Source: a virus. From it: a stretch of DNA of 43,556 bases. How positions within the stretch are numbered: the stretch's first letter is position 1; every line of letters begins with the position of its first letter. Shown piece after piece: positions 18,363 through 26,823 of the stretch. Location: IMG/VR virus record IMGVR_UViG_3300031656_000011, positions 1-43,556 of that record. The stretch is one strand, 5' to 3'. Under the pieces are notes generated by a model. It saw nothing but the letters and a program-made list of their open reading frames with translations, was not told the DNA's origin and searched no databases. The position numbers and the translations under genes were made by a program.

Positions 18363-18370
18363 GTATTTAT
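18363..18370 (-). promoter_or_regulatory. Late promoter box ATAAATAC before gp20
   Basis: GATAAATACACTTA on the minus strand, overlapping the stop of the M15 tape-measure-like gene and 27 bases from the gp20 ATG. The 14 bases are identical to the gp26 promoter at 24607. Confidence 0.65.
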
Positions 18371-21297
18371 CTCGAGTTAGTCATGTCGGTTACAATCGCT
18401 TGATTTTGCGTATTATTCAACCGTTTTACGATAGTTTGTAATGTTTTAAGCGTTTGAACAACGGCTTCTTTGCTATGCAACAACTCAGAGAGGTCTGTAC
18501 TATTCTTAATTATATTACCTGATGACGTATCTGTCAACCTATTTTCGCTAATAGATTTAATTAGTTGCATCAAGCTAGTGTTATTCATTACACTTCCAGC
18601 GCCATCTGGAACAAATAGTTCAGCACTATCTAATCCATTTTGATCTCCAACTATGTAAGGGGCTCCACTTGCAACTTGGCCGCCTGCACGTCTTGGTTTA
18701 GGACCTAAATCATACGCAACTTGTATTTCAGGACTTATTTCATTTCCTAGGTCTTTGCTTGTTGTAACAGCAGCATATTGATTTTCTGTGAATTGGGTGC
18801 CTGGCACCCATACTTCTTTGGCAATTGTTATTTCAGATTTTGAAGCACTAGCTGTAGTTGAGTTGCTTCTTGTTCCTGCGTCAGCTGTTTCACTTGTTGG
18901 ATTACTAAAGTTGTGCCACAATGGTACTGCGGCAATTGGTGTAACTACGCCTGTTTTGATATTGCTTGGTACAACAGCCGATGTTTCTATTGCTTGGAAA
19001 TGGCCTGGGTCGTTTACACCTTGCACATTATCAAGTCCGTGCTTATTCATTATTCCTTCAAGGATAGAATTTGGGCCTTTGTAAAATCCGCCGTTGTTGT
19101 TTTCAATTATTTCGCTGTTTTGTACACCGAGTGCATCAAATGCTAAGCCATAATTGTGCCAACTGCTTCCACCCGGTGCTGCTGTTATACCGCTACTGTT
19201 TAACTGGTTGCTTCGTGTGTTACTTCTAAATCCGTCTGTGATCATTAATTTAATATCAGTGCCCTGGTACTGTTTTTCAAAATCAACAAGTGCGCCTGTT
19301 GCGCGTCTTCGCATTTCTGGCGTAAGTGAATTTAATTGTGCAACAGTGTTTTCAACATTATATATTTGTGTAAAATCTGTAAAATCAGAAACTGTAAGCA
19401 TATCTTTACTAATTAAAGTTGCCATAGTAGAATCCAATGCTGTATTAGTAGCAGTGTCTGTGTTTATATCCAATCCAGTACCACTTGTTAATTCAGTTGC
19501 GTCTCCGGTAAACCCTGCTGTATCAGTTGAACTGTTATTTAATACAGGCGAAACATACGTACCATTGTCTACTACATTGCCGTTTAATGATGTTGTTTTT
19601 GCAGTTGGATCAGATCCATCGATTCCACCAAAATCGTTATTATTATCAACGCCAGCGAATTTCAAAAGCTTTTGGAGTTTTTCTTTACTTCCTGCTAACA
19701 CGGTATTTAGTTTATCAAACATGCCTGCGGTTGTTTCCATATCCATTGTTAATGTTTCTTGTAATTGCAAGAACCGTGTAGTCATGTTATTCATTTGTGT
19801 TGTAACTAATCCTGCAGATTTTAAATTATTACGTTGTTCTAGTATAGCTTGGTCTAATGCACCATCTTCTGCTAAATTTCCTTGTTGTCGATTCACGGTA
19901 ATTGCTGCTGTCTGAAGTTCAGATACCATACCAGCTACACTGTCAGCTGATGAGCCTTGTGATGCTAAACGAATTTCCACATCTGCAGCTTTTATTGCCT
20001 TTGCAACATAACCAGATATGTCGTCTGCACTTGCTGTTCCGCTACGTGTTAATTCTTCTAATCCATTAATAAATCCAGGCATTACATTGCTTACTGCGGC
20101 TGTTAGCCCTGGCATCATTGTTTCTATTCTTGCAGATATATCAAAATCTGCCATGTTGCCATTACCTGCTTTTTCAAATGCTTCGCGCTGGTACGCATCT
20201 AGTATTGTTTGCATCATCTTCATATCAGGTGCCACTCTTCCAAGTTGCATTGTGATTGCTTCTAATACATCTGCATGACCTGGTAACCCGTGTTGCCTTA
20301 GAGTCATTTGTGCGGCTTCACCGAACTGATCAACTGATTGCAGTGAACGATTCATTGCTTCAGATCGTTCTAATGATGTTAGACTTGCAACTGCGCCTGC
20401 TTCTATTTGTAAATCAATGAATCTCTTGTTTACTTGGCTTGCACTGTTGTTTAAGTCTTTGTTAATTCTTCCTGTTCTACGCGAATAAGATATATACTCT
20501 GCATATGCTTTTTGCATATCAACTGATTTTAATCCTAAATCGCCTAAGCCTTCTGCTGTCTGGTCCAATGCTGCATAAAACTTTGTAAATGTACTTACGC
20601 CAGCGCCCATTGTGTCGCCGAGTCCTAGCATCCCTTCTCCAAACTGATGCACGTTGTCTATCAACGAAGTGTATGTATTACCAGAATCAATTGTGCGCTT
20701 TCTTATATCGTCAAATGCAGATGCGCCTTCACCGTACAATACACCCGCGTCTATTATTTTTGACTGAGCAACTGCGAACTGTTCTAGTTTTGCAGCATTC
20801 CAGCCTGCGTATGCAAGTACTGCGTCAATTGCAACATTTCCCGCAGTGCCAAGTGCTGCCATTCCTGCGCTACCAGTATCCATCATGCTAGAAAAATTTA
20901 ATATTCCAGTTTTAGATTTTTGTGAAGCTGACACAAGGCTGCTAGCGCCTGTAGTTAATGCAGTCAGTGGCTTATCTGCTTGGTCAAAGAAGCCCATTAC
21001 TTTGTTTATTCCCTTTGATGCTTTTACTACTTTGCTACTAAATTCTTCATTGCTTTCTTGTTGTACTTGGTCTTGAGCGTTGTCGCGCTGAGTTGCATCT
21101 ACCATGCTTGCAATAGTTTTTTGCAACGAGTTCATGTCGCTGCCCATTCCCTTCATTAGCTTTACAAATTGCTGGTCTGTTTTGTTAGTAGCTGACATAT
21201 ATGAAGCAACTCGATTCATTGTTTCTTCGCTAGCCCAGGCAGGTATAGATACTGTGTCGCCAGTTGGTAATGTAATGTTGTTTGTTTTTTCTGCCAT
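18367..21297 (-). CDS. Tape-measure-like virion protein with M15 peptidase domain, 976 aa
   Basis: The N-terminus has the motif IPAWASEETMNRVASYM, shared with the next gene upstream. Residues 60-570 are helical with Ala/Gly-rich hydrophobic stretches (near 130-170) and long polar helices, as in tail tape measures. Residues about 640-775 form a D-Ala-D-Ala carboxypeptidase/endopeptidase domain of family M15: DGFRSNTRSNQL, then SSWHNYGLAFDAL (S-x-H-x2-G-x-A-x-D zinc motif), then NDPGHFQA (third ligand His). Residues about 865-895 (GGQVASGAPYIVGDQNGL then AELFVPDGAG) match a C-terminal signature of many phage tape measures. I infer a tail-lumen protein that cuts peptide cross-links during DNA entry. 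It begins one base after the upstream gene. Confidence 0.72.
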   Translation of the reverse strand: MAEKTNNITLPTGDTVSIPAWASEETMNRVASYMSATNKTDQQFVKLMKGMGSDMNSLQKTIASMVDATQRDNAQDQVQQESNEEFSSKVVKASKGINKVMGFFDQADKPLTALTTGASSLVSASQKSKTGILNFSSMMDTGSAGMAALGTAGNVAIDAVLAYAGWNAAKLEQFAVAQSKIIDAGVLYGEGASAFDDIRKRTIDSGNTYTSLIDNVHQFGEGMLGLGDTMGAGVSTFTKFYAALDQTAEGLGDLGLKSVDMQKAYAEYISYSRRTGRINKDLNNSASQVNKRFIDLQIEAGAVASLTSLERSEAMNRSLQSVDQFGEAAQMTLRQHGLPGHADVLEAITMQLGRVAPDMKMMQTILDAYQREAFEKAGNGNMADFDISARIETMMPGLTAAVSNVMPGFINGLEELTRSGTASADDISGYVAKAIKAADVEIRLASQGSSADSVAGMVSELQTAAITVNRQQGNLAEDGALDQAILEQRNNLKSAGLVTTQMNNMTTRFLQLQETLTMDMETTAGMFDKLNTVLAGSKEKLQKLLKFAGVDNNNDFGGIDGSDPTAKTTSLNGNVVDNGTYVSPVLNNSSTDTAGFTGDATELTSGTGLDINTDTATNTALDSTMATLISKDMLTVSDFTDFTQIYNVENTVAQLNSLTPEMRRRATGALVDFEKQYQGTDIKLMITDGFRSNTRSNQLNSSGITAAPGGSSWHNYGLAFDALGVQNSEIIENNNGGFYKGPNSILEGIMNKHGLDNVQGVNDPGHFQAIETSAVVPSNIKTGVVTPIAAVPLWHNFSNPTSETADAGTRSNSTTASASKSEITIAKEVWVPGTQFTENQYAAVTTSKDLGNEISPEIQVAYDLGPKPRRAGGQVASGAPYIVGDQNGLDSAELFVPDGAGSVMNNTSLMQLIKSISENRLTDTSSGNIIKNSTDLSELLHSKEAVVQTLKTLQTIVKRLNNTQNQAIVTDMTNSR

Positions 21298-21298
21298 G

Positions 21299-24200
21299 CT
21301 ATGCTCCGCTTGTATCCATTAACTTAGCTAAGGTTTCAATTTCAGCAGTCAGTTGACGTTCTAGTGCTATCAATGTTCCTAGTTGGTCATTTGATAATTC
21401 CTTTGTAGCTGTATTTATTCCATCGCCGTCTTCGTCTATGATCATTGAAATATCATGTTGAAGAGATCTAATCTTTGTCTGTGCATCGATTGCTGCTGGT
21501 GCAATTGTATTAGCTGCTGATAGCTTTCCTGAATTCAATGCTTGTGAATATTCACCTGCAAATACCTGGCGTTCTGCAATATCAGTTAATCTCATATCCT
21601 GTGCTGCGCCTGGCGCCATGTCTCTAGGGTCTATTCCATATACAACTTTGTATGCTGTATACATGTTATCGAGATTATCTTGATATTTTTGCCACCATGG
21701 GAGATTAAAGTATGCAGCACTTGCCTGGGCGGCAATTTCCGGAGTATTCATTAAATCTGGATTGCCAAGTAAATCCTGACCAATCATCTCACCTACTAAT
21801 TTATAATTCTGTTCACCAGTAAGTTGAATAAAACCTCGTCCTCTGTAATCATATCCGCCTATATTGCTGTATACTACATCAAAAAACTCGCGGTCGTTTT
21901 GCTTTAACTGTGTAAGCTGAAACTCATTAAGATGTTGTACTCTGTTACCCATTGCTGATCGAATTCTATCGTTGTCTGTGTTTTTATAACTGCGTTCTGA
22001 TTGCATTTGCCAACCTGATTCACCTTGTATCATAGCTAGTATATTAGCTTGTGCTGTTGGATCAGTTATTCCTTGTTTAGTAAGTTCAGCTAACATTACA
22101 CCTTGCAATGATGCGCCTGCTTCGAAATTACTACTAGTTGTTACAGTAGCAGGTGTTTGATTTTTAGTCTGATTGAGCACTACTAATGCATCATTTAATG
22201 CCGCTTGCTTTTGAGTTAAGAGCACATTATTTGCAATTAGCACATTTTCCAATGCTACATACGCCGACTTATCTGGATCATTTGCGGCTGTTAGTTGTTC
22301 TTTTAATATATCAATTGCAATGTGTTGATCTCTGAATCGTTGTTGTGCTAATATTGCAGCTTCAGCTGCTGAATCTTGTTCTAATTGATTTTCTTCTGCT
22401 TTCTTTTCTAGTTCAGTAACTTTAAGTATAGCATCGCTTACTATAGTTTGTGCTTGTGTTCTTTCTTGTTCTAGCGCGGTAACTGTAGCTGTTTCGCCTT
22501 CAATCTTTGCTTTTTCTATTGCAGCCTCAATGTCAACTAAGTCGTTACGTTTGTTTTCTAACGCAATTGATCTAATATCGCTGTGTATGTTATAGCCTGT
22601 TTCCATTAAGTCTTTTATTAATGTTTCTCTGCTTTTAGATTTTGCAAATTCGTCTAACCTAATAGTTTGTAGCTTTGCTCTGGCATCTATTATATTTTGT
22701 TTAAGTAATTCTACCTGTACTTGATCTACTTCTCTGCCGTCTTCGAAGTTATTCAATTGATCCACAAGAGAATCATGTTCTTGTTGTGCTTTATTTACTA
22801 TATCAGTAATGGAACTGACACTAGTTGTTGCTTGTTCCACTGTCAGTGTTCCACTAACAGATGTGTTTGTACGAATAGGCAAATTATCATTGACGTTAAA
22901 ACCAGGGGCTGCTAGGTAAGCGTTTGCTGAATCTCGTTGAAAGTCTGTCATGACGTCTGTCATTGAACTGCTGCTGCCTGATCCAAATACATCTAACCAG
23001 AAATCTGTGAAAGTGCCAACTGAATTTTCCATAACAGTCATTACAGTTCCCATTGAACTAAATCCTGGCGTTACAGTGTGCAGTCCTTGCATGAATGCCT
23101 TAGACACAGATCCTACTATTTCTATACTGTCGTCTGCGCCATCAACTTTTGATTGTGCGGCTTCGAGTCGTGCTTTTATTTCAACCGCAGTTCCTTCTAG
23201 AAACGCAAGAGGCACTGTTGTTGCTGTAGCAATAGCCATGTTTACATCATCTGCAAATGAGCTTGTACCTAACAATGCAGATGAACCTTTTATAAGTTTA
23301 AGTATTTCAGTGTATCTTGTTGCCATATCTTCTGGAGTTTTTATTGAACCAATTGCATTGTCTTCTATTAATTTTACTACTCCTTGGAATACACTAGGTC
23401 CAAGTCCTTGTAGCATTTCTGTAAATTGTGGATCAAGCATGTTGTTAACTGCACTACGATCAAACTGTATATCAGCAGTAGTGCCTGCTATTACATCAGC
23501 TAGTTGTCCTGCAAACGTGTCTCCCATTGTGCCAGACGCTAGCATCATTAGGAAATCTGCGCCTTCTCTGCTTCTTGCTGCAGCGCCATCACCGAATGTT
23601 TCGTTTAAATATTTTGTATTTTGTACAAATGCTAACTGATAGTCTTGATTTTCTCTCAGTAGCTGCCTCGATGCTAACATAGCTGAACGCTGAACACCAA
23701 GCGTGTCTGCTAAGTATAAACCCATTTGGTTAGCGCCCTCGAAACTATTAATTACTTTTTTCTGTTCTACTGCTCCAAGTGTGTTAATTTCGTTTAAAGC
23801 AAACAATTGCGCGGTCTCATCTGCTAACAATGCCGCGGTTTCCTTTGGTGTGTATCCAAAGTTCTTAACACTTTTTACCATGTTATCATCAGTTAAGAAT
23901 CTAAACATGCGACCTGATCCTTCAATCATGCTTCCAGATGTTGATGTTATAACTGCACCTGTCTGTTGTAATATTGCTTGATAATCACCAAGAGACATAC
24001 CAAATGCGGCTGCTTGTCCACGCATTTCTGTATAATTATCAACGTCTCCCATTACAACGCCTAAGTCAATCATTGCTCGTAATTGTTTTTCTTGGCTACT
24101 AATTAGTTTAGCAAACACTGCTGCAATGCCTGTTAAAGCAACTGCTGCTCCTGTAGTGGACGTAGCGGCCCACTTAAATGCTTTTGCTCTTCCTGGTAAC

Positions 24201-24574
24201 ATGTCTGTTAATCCATGCGCAGCTGCGTTCATTGCCTCTGATCCAGCCGAAGCAAGCTCGGTCATATTTTCAAGTCCGCTTGATTTGGACATTAAACTGC
24301 TGCCCAAGTTACGTGTGTGCTTGTCAATTGCATTAGTTGTTCTGTTAGAATCTGCTAAACTTCGATTTAAATCTTGTGTTGCATTTTTTATGTAGGTTTC
24401 TAGTTGCTTTGCATCAGCGGCGCCTGCTACTTGCTGTATTGCAACAGCTAATGCAGTAGTCTTGATGCTGCTGCTTCTGCTCAATTGTGCGATTCGTTGT
24501 ACTGTATCTTCGCTGGCCCACGGATATTGTGCGTGAATTTGCTGTATTGCCTGCTGTATTAGTTCTTGATCCAT
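21299..24574 (-). CDS. Tape-measure-like virion protein with GH19 lysozyme domain, 1091 aa
   Basis: The N-terminus YPWASEDTVQRIAQLSRSSS is related to that of the adjacent 976-aa protein. Residues 100-800 are mostly helical, with a hydrophobic Ala/Gly segment near 140-165 and a Glu/Lys/Gln-rich coiled coil near 590-790. Residues about 815-1010 are a GH19 chitinase/lysozyme-like domain: IQGESGWQMQSERSYKN supplies two candidate acids (Glu in GESG and in SER), followed by YRGRGFIQLTGEQNYK, the most diagnostic GH19 block, and NPDLMNTPEIAAQASAAYF. I infer a virion-associated glycan hydrolase fused to a tape measure or hub. It is divergent from gp26, with a late-promoter box upstream; AAGGAA precedes the ATG. 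Confidence 0.72.
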   Translation of the reverse strand: MDQELIQQAIQQIHAQYPWASEDTVQRIAQLSRSSSIKTTALAVAIQQVAGAADAKQLETYIKNATQDLNRSLADSNRTTNAIDKHTRNLGSSLMSKSSGLENMTELASAGSEAMNAAAHGLTDMLPGRAKAFKWAATSTTGAAVALTGIAAVFAKLISSQEKQLRAMIDLGVVMGDVDNYTEMRGQAAAFGMSLGDYQAILQQTGAVITSTSGSMIEGSGRMFRFLTDDNMVKSVKNFGYTPKETAALLADETAQLFALNEINTLGAVEQKKVINSFEGANQMGLYLADTLGVQRSAMLASRQLLRENQDYQLAFVQNTKYLNETFGDGAAARSREGADFLMMLASGTMGDTFAGQLADVIAGTTADIQFDRSAVNNMLDPQFTEMLQGLGPSVFQGVVKLIEDNAIGSIKTPEDMATRYTEILKLIKGSSALLGTSSFADDVNMAIATATTVPLAFLEGTAVEIKARLEAAQSKVDGADDSIEIVGSVSKAFMQGLHTVTPGFSSMGTVMTVMENSVGTFTDFWLDVFGSGSSSSMTDVMTDFQRDSANAYLAAPGFNVNDNLPIRTNTSVSGTLTVEQATTSVSSITDIVNKAQQEHDSLVDQLNNFEDGREVDQVQVELLKQNIIDARAKLQTIRLDEFAKSKSRETLIKDLMETGYNIHSDIRSIALENKRNDLVDIEAAIEKAKIEGETATVTALEQERTQAQTIVSDAILKVTELEKKAEENQLEQDSAAEAAILAQQRFRDQHIAIDILKEQLTAANDPDKSAYVALENVLIANNVLLTQKQAALNDALVVLNQTKNQTPATVTTSSNFEAGASLQGVMLAELTKQGITDPTAQANILAMIQGESGWQMQSERSYKNTDNDRIRSAMGNRVQHLNEFQLTQLKQNDREFFDVVYSNIGGYDYRGRGFIQLTGEQNYKLVGEMIGQDLLGNPDLMNTPEIAAQASAAYFNLPWWQKYQDNLDNMYTAYKVVYGIDPRDMAPGAAQDMRLTDIAERQVFAGEYSQALNSGKLSAANTIAPAAIDAQTKIRSLQHDISMIIDEDGDGINTATKELSNDQLGTLIALERQLTAEIETLAKLMDTSGA
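21411..21418 (-). promoter_or_regulatory. Possible internal late promoter before the M15 gene
   Basis: AATAAATAC on the minus strand inside the 3' end of the GH19 gene, 114 bases before the next start codon. Confidence 0.35.
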
Positions 24575-24630: not shown

Positions 24631-24638
24631 GTATTTAT
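24631..24638 (-). promoter_or_regulatory. Late promoter box ATAAATAC for the tape-measure-like genes
   Basis: CATAAATAC on the minus strand, predicted start near 24625. It forms an inverted repeat with the gp26 box at 24608, so the two start sites are about four bases apart and the boxes face each other. Confidence 0.6.
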
Positions 24639-24648
24639 GGAGAAAAAA

Positions 24649-25479
24649 ATGACAAATCCTCTTATTCAGGCATATAGAAAGCCTGCGTTATATGTTGCAC
24701 TGCCAAGTGGCGGCAGGTATTATAATACAAAGCCAACATTAAGTGTAGACGGTGAACTTGCTGTATACAGTATGACAGCAAGAGATGAACTTGTATCTAA
24801 GACACCAGATGCATTGTTCAACGGTGAAGCTACTTTTAGTTTAATTAAAAGTTGTGCGCCAGGTATCGGAGATCCACACGAAATGCCAGTGAATGATCTA
24901 ATGGTTGTACTAATTGCTATTAGACAAGCAAGTTACGGTGAAGCAATTGATGTTGATATAAAATGTCCAAAATGCGATCACATGAACCAATTAAGCATCA
25001 GTACCAATGCGTTACTAGGTACTGTAACATTAAATGAGAGCTCAAACGAGGTTAATTTTGACAACGGGTTTAACCTTTCGTGCAAGCCGTATAACTTATA
25101 CGATCGCACTAGGCTTCAACTACAGCGTATTAAGCAACAAAAGTTAATTGAGAACTTGAGTGACGCTGAATTAGATGACGAAGAACGCCAACGTAGATTT
25201 GGTGAAACGTTTATTGAAATTGCAGACATTACAGTGAAGTTGATTGCTAACTCAATTACTAGTGTTACTGCGCCTGAGTCAGAAGCAACTGTTGACTATG
25301 CTACTATACTAGAATGGTTACAGTCAATTACAAAGTCTGATTATGATTTAATTAAGACATGCGTAGAAGATCTAAGCGACAATCAAATTGATACATCGTT
25401 TAACGCAAAATGCCAAGATTGTGGACACGAGTGGGAAACTACCATTGACTTGGATCTTGCAAATTTTTTCGCGGGTTGA
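24649..25479 (+). CDS. gp26: Baseplate hub / tail assembly protein gp26
   Basis: 276 aa from ATG 24649, which has GGAG seven bases upstream; the ATG at 24637 overlaps this site and is unlikely. The N-terminus NPLIQAYRKPALYVALPSGG is the marine gp26 signature (NPL...R.P..Y..LPS.G.YY). Two Cys pairs, C106/C109 (CPKC) and C255/C258 (CQDCGH), look like a split zinc ribbon. T4 gp26 is described as a baseplate hub component. The last codons contain T TTT TTC followed by a hairpin; a -1 shift there would extend the protein by 78 residues instead of ending at TGA 25477. The gene sits back to back with the tape-measure-like genes. Confidence 0.82.
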   Translation: MTNPLIQAYRKPALYVALPSGGRYYNTKPTLSVDGELAVYSMTARDELVSKTPDALFNGEATFSLIKSCAPGIGDPHEMPVNDLMVVLIAIRQASYGEAIDVDIKCPKCDHMNQLSISTNALLGTVTLNESSNEVNFDNGFNLSCKPYNLYDRTRLQLQRIKQQKLIENLSDAELDDEERQRRFGETFIEIADITVKLIANSITSVTAPESEATVDYATILEWLQSITKSDYDLIKTCVEDLSDNQIDTSFNAKCQDCGHEWETTIDLDLANFFAG

Positions 25480-25496
25480 TAGCGTCTCGACAACCC
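25464..25496 (+). promoter_or_regulatory. Candidate programmed -1 frameshift signal in gp26
   Basis: Slippery heptamer T TTT TTC at 25464-25470, in the correct register for gp26 (codons TTT, TTC; after slippage TTT, TTT, all read by tRNA-Phe). Two bases later a perfect six-base stem pairs GGGTTG (25473-25478) with CAACCC (25491-25496). The last stop in the -1 frame upstream is TGA at 25446, and the gp26 stop is at 25477, so the signal lies in the only 31-base window where a shift could work. The spacer is short compared with the usual five to nine bases. Confidence 0.65.
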
Positions 25497-25706
25497 AGTG
25501 AAATATATGAAATTGTTGAACGTTACAACAATGACTTAAAAGCAACAGAGTCTAGCTATTTTGATTTAGTTATCAAATCGGGAGGTTTAGTTTCATACAA
25601 TGAAATAATGACAATGCCTGTTGATGCGTTGGCATTATTTGTAGAACGATTAAACAAAAACAAAGAAGAATCTAACGCGGCTGCAAAAGCAGCTAAAACA
25701 CGATAA
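25476..25706 (+). CDS. -1 frame extension of gp26 (probable frameshift product C-terminus)
   Basis: This frame is -1 relative to gp26 and is open from 25449 to the stop at 25704. Its only plausible independent start is TTG 25476, which overlaps the gp26 stop and has no ribosome site. The frame instead overlaps slippery T TTT TTC at 25464-25470 and a GGGTTG/CAACCC hairpin at 25473-25496. Shifted ribosomes would make a 352-aa fusion. The extension ends in a SYNEIMTMPVDALALFVERL motif that resembles the C-terminal part of frameshifted tail-assembly chaperones (GT type), followed by a Lys/Ala tail. I infer a chaperone role for the tail tape measure; independent translation as a 76-aa protein is the alternative. 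Confidence 0.6.
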   Translation: MIASRQPSEIYEIVERYNNDLKATESSYFDLVIKSGGLVSYNEIMTMPVDALALFVERLNKNKEESNAAAKAAKTR

Positions 25707-25710
25707 TGTG

Positions 25711-26166
25711 TTACACGGAAGTAATACTATCTAAGTAAGCTTTAGGCCAGCTGTCGTAATAGCTGGTCTTTTGCATTACTGCTCTCTTTTCCATTATGTC
25801 CTCTCGTGATTGTATAAACACACAATTAGTAAAGTTTTGAACAAAATGCCCAGATTCTGGTGTACTAGTAAAGTATAGTAGTTCTGGATGTTCGCTTGAC
25901 AAGACGTCAAGTACAGTCTGTACATCTACTATATTATTACCATCTACCCACGCAATGCCAATTTCAAATTTAGTTCTATCAAATGCTCTATAACTATCTA
26001 AGTTATTATCTCTGCAATCCATAAACTGAATTGCATTAGTTATTCTAGCCTTACGGGCAAATGGACATACAGCAAAGCCATCAAGTTTTTTTGCTTCTAC
26101 ATCTCTTATAGTCCACTCGACAAATTTTATACAGAACTCTTCAAAAGTCATAGCTGTCCATTTCAT
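25711..26166 (-). CDS. Conserved hypothetical protein with CPFARKAR motif, 151 aa
   Basis: 151 aa, soluble, no signal peptide. Near residue 33 is GFAVCPFARKARITNAIQF, a CPFA-x-KA motif also seen in small phage and bacterial proteins of unknown function (DUF1415-like, only a resemblance). The C-terminus QKTSYYDSWPKAYLDSITSV is aromatic. The protein probably has one alpha/beta domain; Cys in the motif could be catalytic or metal-binding, but nothing confirms this. No strong ribosome site precedes ATG 26166; the ATG at 26151 (MTFEEFCIK) is an alternative. It converges on the gp26 operon with only four bases between the stop codons, and its 3' end contains the terminator for the opposite strand. 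Confidence 0.6.
   Translation of the reverse strand: MKWTAMTFEEFCIKFVEWTIRDVEAKKLDGFAVCPFARKARITNAIQFMDCRDNNLDSYRAFDRTKFEIGIAWVDGNNIVDVQTVLDVLSSEHPELLYFTSTPESGHFVQNFTNCVFIQSREDIMEKRAVMQKTSYYDSWPKAYLDSITSV
25745..25772 (+). terminator. Rho-independent terminator for the gp26 operon
   Basis: An eight-base stem, GGCCAGCT (25745-25752) with AGCTGGTC (25761-25768, one G-U pair), an eight-base loop and then TTTT. It lies 39 bases after the stop of the gp26 extension and inside the coding 3' end of the converging 151-aa gene. Confidence 0.6.
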
Positions 26167-26194
26167 ATTAAGATTATATATTGTTTAGTATATC

Positions 26195-26237
26195 GATGTC
26201 TTACGACATCATCATCTTCGTAATGCTAAAGCATTAC
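26195..26237 (-). promoter_or_regulatory. Two hairpins in the leader of the 151-aa gene
   Basis: GATGTC/GACATC (26195-26210, four-base loop) and GTAATGCT/AGCATTAC (26220-26237, tight loop) lie between the candidate promoter at 26304 and the start codon at 26166. They may shape the leader RNA. No riboswitch class is recognised. Confidence 0.35.
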
Positions 26238-26303
26238 TTCAATGTTATTTTTAGAACTCTTATACTTAAGATTAACTAATAGTGATATACAACATAGTAA
26301 TTA

Positions 26304-26311
26304 TATTTATG
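26304..26311 (-). promoter_or_regulatory. Possible late promoter for the 151-aa gene
   Basis: CATAAATA on the minus strand, 138 bases upstream of the 151-aa start codon; lacks the final C seen in the stronger boxes. The leader would contain the two hairpins at 26195-26237. Confidence 0.35.
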
Positions 26312-26425
26312 ATTATATATTAGTTACTATTTCCTTGATTTGTTATTCACACTTAGCTTTATAAAGCCAAATGCAAAATAATTTCAATAAAAATGTCAGA
26401 ACATTTCCCATCAAAGTTACCCACT

Positions 26426-26687
26426 CGTTATAGTAAAACCGTATTAGCACACGGAAGAGGCGGTTGTGCGGTACCTCTTTACTTACTGCTTATCAGCGCA
26501 AGAACACCTATTGCCATAACGACGACTAAAGGCTACTCGTAAGTTCCAAATTGTCAGGAGAGCTTACTCATTTTGGTTGGTCAGACCAGCGCATTGACCA
26601 AGGGCACACCAGTATCCGATCACGTGAATTAGCACGTAACCTCAAGGTGTAGTCGAGAAACCCGACCAAACAGAGCCATGTGGTGCC
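26426..26687. ncRNA. Candidate structured RNA, unassigned class, strand unknown
   Basis: Nested pairings suggest a folded RNA. P1 26426-26431/26516-26521 (CGTTAT/ATAACG) encloses P2 26432-26437/26478-26483 (AGTAAA/TTTACT), extended by ACC/GGT and GCACA/TGTGC (26447-26451/26465-26469), plus P3 GCAA/TTGC (26498/26511). GAGG 26457 could pair with CCTC 26474 as a pseudoknot. Further stems: TTGGTCA/TGACCAA (26577/26595), ACGTG/CACGT (26622/26633), GTCG/CGAC (26652/26663), GGCAC/GTGCC (26603/26683). It does not match tRNA, tmRNA, RNase P or the group I conserved core as far as I can see. Confidence 0.35.
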
Positions 26688-26690
26688 TTT

Positions 26691-26712
26691 ATTAGAAATG
26701 TATTAGAAATGT
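26691..26712. repeat. Tandem duplication of an 11-base unit
   Basis: ATTAGAAATGT occurs twice head to tail at 26691-26701 and 26702-26712, just before the longer tandem repeats. Confidence 0.7.
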
Positions 26713-26732
26713 ATTTTGTGTTTGTATTAGCG

Positions 26733-26794
26733 TGACTTGGTGTCTGTGCTTGAATTGACTTGGTGTCTGTGCTTGAATTGACTTGGTGTCTGTG
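26733..26794. repeat. 23-base tandem repeats, 2.7 copies
   Basis: Two exact 23-base copies (26733-26755, 26756-26778) and a 16-base third copy (26779-26794). Each begins TGACTTGGTGTCTGTG and the full copies end CTTGAAT. At each full-copy junction the sequence reads TTGACT. They lie 30 bases beyond the end of the GIY-YIG gene. Iteron-like protein-binding sites are possible but unproven. Confidence 0.85.
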
Positions 26795-26823
26795 TATTTC
26801 TTGTTAGCAGCATAACATAAATG

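Follow-up and report, generated by a model that had tools for sequence, protein, structure and literature searches.

A probable programmed -1 frameshift in gp26, a putative tail assembly chaperone gene of T4-superfamily phages

The window, that is, the whole stretch of 43,556 nt analysed here (IMG/VR virus record IMGVR_UViG_3300031656_000011), encodes a gp26 homologue (24637..25479, plus strand) that ends in a conserved slippery site. An open -1 frame under selection continues past it, a stem after the site covaries in the window's clade, and the downstream frame has no conserved start. We infer that the shift happens, at some frequency, and that the product has a chaperone role. Judged from the sequences, the frameshift is very probably real. 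Taken as a whole, the data are best explained, and we say so with high confidence, by gp26 being the T4-superfamily tail assembly chaperone with a long form made by a -1 shift.

In the proposed mechanism, most ribosomes would stop at the gp26 stop codon, TGA 25477-25479, and give the zero-frame short form of 276 aa. A minority would slip back one base at T TTT TTC with the help of the downstream hairpin, adding 78 residues to give a form of 352 aa. In lambda, the two forms G and GT coat the tape measure protein and recruit the tail tube protein; by analogy, both gp26 forms may do the same. In jumbo phages, cyanophages and uncultivated relatives, such a shift would yield the long form belonging to a core tail gene. 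The downstream frame was annotated as a separate small gene or left unannotated in the records examined.

The gp26 gene and its predicted role

The window gp26 matched PF12322 (T4_baseplate) with an E value of 2e-23 and 83.7 bits against a cut-off of 24.5, which places it in the T4 gp26/gp51 family. It also matched phrog_150 (E 4.9e-23). The ORF listing begins the gene at ATG 24637, giving 280 aa for gp26 and 356 aa for the fusion. The true start is likely ATG 24649, which has GGAG directly 5' of it; the product sizes from this codon are 276 and 352 aa, matching those given by the initial annotation.

Next to gp26, on the minus strand, lies a divergent gene of 1091 aa (21299..24574) with a chitinase class I-like segment (PF00182, E 1.3e-8). 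A second long tape-measure-like protein (18367-21297, minus strand) gave a weak VanY match (PF02557, 7.9e-4, below cut-off); both long proteins thus carry cell-wall enzyme-like segments. All 46 window-clade members with enough flank have a divergent open frame of 400 aa or more ahead of gp26, and the RaK2 gene in the same position is annotated as similar to tape measure protein. The tape-measure identity of the gp26 neighbour rests on its length, its position and this RaK2 annotation. No such long divergent neighbour was found upstream of gp26 in cyanophage-like loci. On the other side, a convergent gene (25711-26166) begins only four bases past the end of the -1 frame. It is followed by 657 bases (26167-26823) without an ORF of at least 60 aa, between two minus-strand ORFs.

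The AlphaFold2 model of gp26 had a mean pLDDT of 86.4. With Foldseek it gave 63 viral matches at E 0.001, including predicted hub proteins of T4-like and jumbo phages, and no PDB match at E 0.001 or better. A further structure comparison returned YqbN of B. subtilis (3klu; Z 5.8, 82 of 119 residues, rmsd 3.3) and the V. cholerae PICI-like ORF19 (5ir0; Z 5.0, 86 of 103 residues, rmsd 4.2), both below trust level. These two aligned over residues 28-249 of the model, and the higher-scoring rows (Z up to 6.8) aligned mostly to one helix pair. We take YqbN to be an XkdN-like tail chaperone. PF08890 (Phage_TAC_5) was not matched in the window; among 14 control genomes, it was matched in B. subtilis only. 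A search of solved-structure sequences by alignment found nothing below E 0.6. T4 gp26 matched 13 residues of two zinc-finger chains (E 0.0025 and 0.0056); we took this as a shared zinc motif and rejected the matches.

The chaperone reading is probable from homology, as it fits the relation to T4 gp26/gp51, which we take to be the T4-like tail assembly chaperones of Vladimirov 2022. The frameshift might instead be real and make a part of the baseplate hub, not a tape-measure chaperone. Annotations speak for this: T4 gp26 bears the annotation baseplate hub and T4 gp51 that of baseplate hub assembly protein, many relatives are annotated as baseplate hub, and the CBB copy is annotated as a structural protein. 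We nevertheless consider a hub part unlikely. A T4-like Acinetobacter phage annotates its gp26 as a tape measure protein assembly chaperone, and the weak fold match to YqbN points the same way. The PA5oct record carries mass-spectrometry notes on the portal and on the divergent structural neighbour and none on gp26, as expected for a chaperone absent from virions. The available part of PRFect, drawing on Vladimirov 2022, describes a short chaperone gene and a longer fusion gene in some T4-like phages; the genes are unnamed in it, and the description fits gp26/gp51.

The -1 frame and its possible starts

The sequence agreed with the initial annotation on the layout of the site. T TTT TTC lies at 25464-25470 in the gp26 register, a GGGTTG/CAACCC stem follows two bases after the heptamer, and the -1 frame is open from 25449 to 25703, with its stop at 25704-25706 (25449..25706, plus strand). 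The claim that the downstream ORF has no ATG or ribosome site also held. Past the heptamer, the only nearby start in this frame is TTG 25476..25478, which overlaps the gp26 stop and has no Shine-Dalgarno-like sequence; the first ATG comes 131 nt after the beginning of the gp26 stop. After the slip, 78 codons (25470-25703) would be joined onto gp26.

The -1 frame behaves as protein-coding sequence in relatives. The fusion reads without a stop in all 154 distinct loci with a complete downstream frame (6 of the 160 site-bearing loci run off their locus), and the extension adds 56-83 residues. Past the gp26 overlap, the median dN/dS was 0.38 in the window's clade (118 of 1081 pairs scorable), and the other two frames there gave 0.97 and 1.63. 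Median values were 0.11 for cyanophage-like extensions (338 of 1891 pairs scorable) and 0.05 for clade K (L192-L207; 62 of 66). Scoring was limited to pairs with 0.1 < pS < 0.6, or 0.05 < pS < 0.6 for the other-frame controls. Every scored pair of the three clades had a dN/dS below 1, indicating purifying selection on the overlapping -1 frame as protein. The F clade (eight members, the L083-L096 group) had no scorable pair.

Comparison by hhalign linked the window-clade extensions to 11 jumbo-phage extensions at 98.0%, with the best of 11 controls at 2.6%. Pfam gave no match for the window's extension, and a PHROGs match to a portal family (E 0.016) was rejected as noise. The extension alone gave one weak tblastn match, to SCTP-2 (E 2). 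Its predicted structure was all helical with a mean pLDDT of 89.4; Foldseek found no viral match for it at E 0.001, and a second structure comparison returned adenylate kinase only (Z 2.0). Two Erwinia phage Special G proteins with close accessions, A0A191ZCG4 and A0A191ZCG7, were hit in the Foldseek BFVD search, one each by the gp26 and extension models, and PhiEaH1 W8D0E1 was also hit by the extension model. The extension hits are weak (E 0.8-1.7). These model-based matches hint that the gp26-extension pair reaches further phages.

The downstream frame could also be a separate small gene, translated by termination-reinitiation at TTGA, TAATG or an ATG at +5. In its favour, 23 of 47 window-clade members have a TTG that overlaps the stop, and all 62 cyanophage-like members have a start within 15 nt (ATG in 48, TTG in 14). 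TAATG is found in Cygsa01 and Vibrio D506, which lack the heptamer, and separate genes are annotated in 121Q, Sf-FS3, XacN1 and CBB. As a general account, however, reinitiation is very improbable. The members with no start 15 nt or less from the gp26 stop number 24 of 47 in the window's clade, 10 of 25 in the mixed jumbo and T4-like set, 6 of 8 in the F clade, 12 of 12 in clade K and 0 of 62 among the cyanophage-like, and the PA5oct -1 frame contains no ATG, GTG or TTG at all. Where starts are nearby, their median anti-Shine-Dalgarno energies are weak (0.9, 0.1, -1.4 and -2.2), and reinitiation would leave the conservation of the heptamer unexplained. For most lineages we set aside reinitiation at the overlapping TTG, the start being absent from those 24 window-clade members. 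In some lineages reinitiation may supplement frameshifting, and the branch without the heptamer may rely on it as a rule. Since a proper start is missing, the conserved residues beside the junction can seemingly be reached only by shifting in several lineages.

Some annotated genes sit within the -1 frame that extends gp26. They are 121Q gene 595 (L012 3340-3549), CBB gp249 (L105 3367-3543), XacN1 ORF316 (L102 3352-3534) and GAP32_242 (L108 3367-3543), all annotated separately, and their assigned starts differ. The short gp51 annotated with an ATG at +5 in Sf-FS3 and S-SSM7 is likewise the -1 extension of gp26.

The slippery heptamer and its putative stimulatory signals

The heptamer T TTT TTC (25464..25470, plus strand) has the form X XXY YYZ in the zero frame. 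Neither it nor the stem beats chance within the window: TTTTTTC occurs 10 times against 12.7 expected, and the stem region gave z -0.69, a fold equalled or bettered by 47 of 200 shuffles. The frameshift is convincing because of the comparison with relatives.

In frame and close to the stop codon of gp26, 160 of the 163 distinct related loci have TTTTTT followed by C, T or G; these counts are not probabilities, since the loci are related and not independent of one another. The 163 came from 204 loci, with identical fusions counted once; L016 and L208 were omitted for incomplete gp26, and Aeromonas 31 and T4 were not included. By sets, T TTT TTC lay by the gp26 stop in 87 of 88 loci (83 from IMG/VR, PA5oct, Atu_ph07, RaK2, 121Q and the window), the exception being L016 with only part of gp26. 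A second set of 15 named phages had the T6 heptamer in 13, as TTTTTTC in 10, TTTTTTT in XacN1 and CM1, and TTTTTTG in RL38J1; Cygsa01 and Aeromonas 31 were without it. The heptamer was found in 96 of 97 further IMG/VR loci (80 found by cyanophage gp26 and 17 by Cygsa01 gp26), the exception being L208, matched over residues 6-199 only. Seven further named phages comprised Aeh1, VH7D, YB07, S-SSM7 and Milchi with the heptamer and Vi01 and Vibrio D506 without. T4 gp26 and gp51 had no heptamer. An overlapping heptamer just upstream, A AAT TTT (25461..25467, plus strand), is also in frame and is a possible second slip site; it is missing in four named jumbo phages and nearly all of the 97 further IMG/VR loci.

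This conservation goes with gp26 identities of only 17-39% between the window and outlying alignment members. The codons at the site are also unusual. The 93 Phe-Phe pairs elsewhere in gp26 genes are encoded by TTC TTT (62), TTT TTT (20) or TTC TTC (11), and never by TTT TTC; TTT makes up 1145 of 1603 other Phe codons. The heptamer requires a preceding codon ending in T, as do 66% of Asn, 57% of Ser and 76% of Asp codons elsewhere. The eighth base, after TTTTTTC, is G in 149 of 154 cases.

An Ackermannviridae-like branch is without the heptamer. The three distinct loci without it, Cygsa01, Vi01 and Vibrio D506 (L099, L209 and L213), form one branch in which ATTTTC or CTTTTC replaces the heptamer and the -1 frame is present. 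The -1 ORF starts at TAATG in Cygsa01 and Vibrio D506, and Vi01 has no ATG near. Reinitiation or a weaker slip site may have taken the heptamer's place in this branch.

The GGGTTG arm of the window stem (25473..25478) pairs with CAACCC (25491..25496; both plus strand) across a 12-nt loop. A repeat search missed this stem; folding of the strand forms it. The usual heptamer-to-stem distance is 5-9 nt, and the window's 2 nt is closer. Among 43 distinct window-clade sequences, 94.2% of the cells of the six-pair stem were paired, a value reached by none of 500 shuffles. The pair 25476-25493 was C-G in 22, U-A in 15, U-G in 6 and unpaired in none, indicating that the stem covaries in the window's clade and may act as a stimulatory element. 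The outermost pair (25473-25496) was unpaired in 15 of the 43. Three of five measures exceeded all 500 shuffles; pairs changed on both sides (336/500) and further pair types (500/500) did not exceed the shuffles. At the covarying pair, TTG/CTG changes along with CAA/CAG, both synonymous in the -1 frame. The U-to-C change falls on the first base of the TTG start, so that start is lost while the stem is kept.

Cyanophage-like sequences also paired well at the site (90.4% of cells, a level that none of 500 shuffles reached); here too, two of five measures, pairs changed on both sides and further pair types, did not exceed the shuffles. The inner pair that changes on both sides was unpaired in 4 of 36, and the loop-closing pair was open in 16 of 36. 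The mean z of local folding after the site was -2.39 in the window's clade (17 of 25 below -2), -2.56 in cyanophage-like loci (19 of 25), -1.52 in the F clade (3 of 8) and -1.01 in the mixed jumbo and T4-like set (5 of 24); the first two were sampled at 25 of 43 and 25 of 51 sequences. Clade K showed no folding signal after the site (mean z -0.05, 0 of 15 below -2). Control places mostly gave values close to 0; their lowest means were -1.1 in cyanophage-like loci and -0.92 in clade K. The site helix beat all five of its own controls in 33 of 47 window-clade, 43 of 64 cyanophage-like, 12 of 23 mixed, 5 of 8 F and 0 of 12 K loci, with a Mann-Whitney p of 0.0012 for the mixed set. Individual stems varied widely: L014 has 18 pairs beginning 1 nt past the heptamer, XacN1 has 11 pairs beginning 6 nt past it, and CBB, GAP32 and XbC2 have 4-5 (just 4 in GAP32 and XbC2).

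A different signal was seen upstream in cyanophage-like loci. In 51 of 64 of these (L097, L112-L191 and L214), 10 nt separate a GGAGG from the heptamer, which the stem follows. The codon for Glu at this place is GAG in 58 of 64, compared with 368 of 1494 Glu codons in other places. This GGAGG and hairpin resemble the E. coli dnaX signal. An internal Shine-Dalgarno motif was absent in 43 of 47 window-clade loci when the five sets were compared.

The initial annotation had proposed that relatives should share the run, the -1 frame and the stem. All were found in the window's clade, jumbo phages and cyanophages; in clade K the slippery run stood and the stem did not. It had also held that relatives without the run and with a separate gene having its own ATG and ribosome site would speak against a frameshift, and Cygsa01 and Vibrio D506, confined to one side branch, are in part of this kind. 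That the T run and stem are kept only through the Phe-Phe protein and the overlapping frames, with no function of their own, is extremely improbable: Phe-Phe is indeed conserved, the stem arms are coding and the window stem alone is unremarkable, but the codon choice at Phe-Phe led us to set this aside, as did the synonymous change of the covarying pair and the selection on the -1 frame as protein past the overlap.

One gene or two, and comparison with known systems

The site was present in 21 of 24 named phages with one PF12322 copy, and 21 of 22 scored named phage records bearing the site had one copy. These 21 are PA5oct, Atu_ph07, RaK2, 121Q, Sf-FS3, RL38J1, XacN1, CM1, CBB, Hallingskeid, SE_PL, GAP32, BF, XbC2, Phosso, Aeh1, VH7D, YB07, S-SSM7, Milchi and Vibrio 2.275.O (partial genome). 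SCTP-2 has the site and gave no PF12322 match at E 0.001; PAC2 (L009) was read and left out of scoring. The heptamer is missing from Vi01, Vibrio D506 and Cygsa01, each with a single copy. T4 and Aeromonas 31 lack the site as well and carry the family twice, as gp26 and gp51.

Residues 147-246 of T4 gp51 matched phrog_634 (1.2e-23), as did the extensions of VH7D (7.9e-22), Aeh1 (2e-14), Milchi (3.2e-20) and a cyanophage-like locus (1.3e-26); the 121Q extension matched phrog_18291 only. A profile of the 154 extensions found the gp51 C-termini of Aeromonas 31 (4.4e-7), Acinetobacter PhT2 (1.5e-4), T4 (0.0018) and RB43 (0.0023), with the best of 387 decoys at 0.09. By hhalign, no sequence link was found between the T4-side extensions and those of the window's clade (1.4%) or the jumbo set (7.9%). 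Since this link fails, the equivalence of the window's extension to the gp51 C-terminus rests on place, frame and length. In the PF12322 tree, seven T4-type gp26/gp51 rows grouped at 91/91 among the frameshifting rows and three heptamer-less rows grouped at 99/98; the root is at the midpoint only, and we infer which state is old and which derived.

We consider it reasonably likely that in the whole T4 superfamily with its jumbo phages the T6 frameshift is an old and common way to make a long gp26, that T4 gp51 is a later duplication freezing the long form, that the cyanophage "gp51" is no independent gene, and that the slip site stayed fixed while stimulators were swapped between lineages. The window's clade would use a hairpin only, cyanophages GGAGG 10 nt upstream plus a hairpin, and several jumbo phages long-range stems; none was found in clade K. 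Setting the two-gene solution of T4 against the frameshift solution of its relatives would make the cost and benefit of a fixed short-to-long ratio testable in cultured phages such as cyanophages, Aeh1 and 121Q.

The slippery sequence of lambda is G GGA AAG. The tail assembly chaperone frameshifts of lambda G/GT, P2 and similar phages were reportedly treated by Xu, Hendrix and Duda in 2004 and by Christie in 2002. Like lambda G/GT and P2, the window would make a short protein and a longer -1 fusion from one gene, with a heptamer near its 3' end; the gene lies beside one that is tape-measure-like by length and position. The likeness to lambda G/GT is one of gene layout: the window uses T TTT TTC, its hairpin is only 2 nt off, and its gp26 diverges from the tape-measure-like neighbour, unlike lambda G/GT.

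The accessible text of the Adele paper (PMC12846349), citing Vladimirov, Gautam and Davidson 2022, describes poly-T slippery signals as known for the TAC-N genes of T4-like phages, and according to the available part of PRFect some T4-like phages have a short gene and a long fusion gene in place of frameshifting. It is thus probable that frameshifting in the tail chaperones of T4-like phages is already in print, and the initial annotation, which knew of no description of frameshifting in gp26, was probably wrong for the kind. In the portions of the literature at hand on gp26, T4-like chaperone and cyanophage gp51 frameshifting, the surveyed conservation, the stems, the cyanophage GGAGG and the jumbo-phage cases were not found described. 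In the same text (PMC12846349), the tail chaperones of Vandenendeviridae and Andersonviridae frameshift at a GTTTTT motif. They resemble the window in motif and layout, a poly-T -1 site ending the short chaperone and a downstream frame annotated as hypothetical, and they belong to another phage lineage.

For cyanophages, the accessible part of Sullivan 2010 (PMC3037559) gives gp51 as about 20% of the length of other gp51 proteins, with the first ~200 residues lacking in cyanophages and marine vibriophages and gp51 missing in Aeh1; the word frameshift does not occur in the text. A frameshift would account for the truncated look of cyanophage gp51 and for the reported loss in Aeh1. What Sullivan 2010 treats as a reduced gene is, in the cyanophages examined here, the -1 extension of gp26. 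With T4, the likeness is PF12322 in both gp26 and gp51; gp51 has the same N-terminal domain as gp26, and its C-terminal extension is a homologue of those that cyanophages, Aeh1 and VH7D would add by frameshifting. The difference is that T4 and Aeromonas 31 use two separate genes, whereas the window and its relatives have one gene and, very probably, a frameshift.
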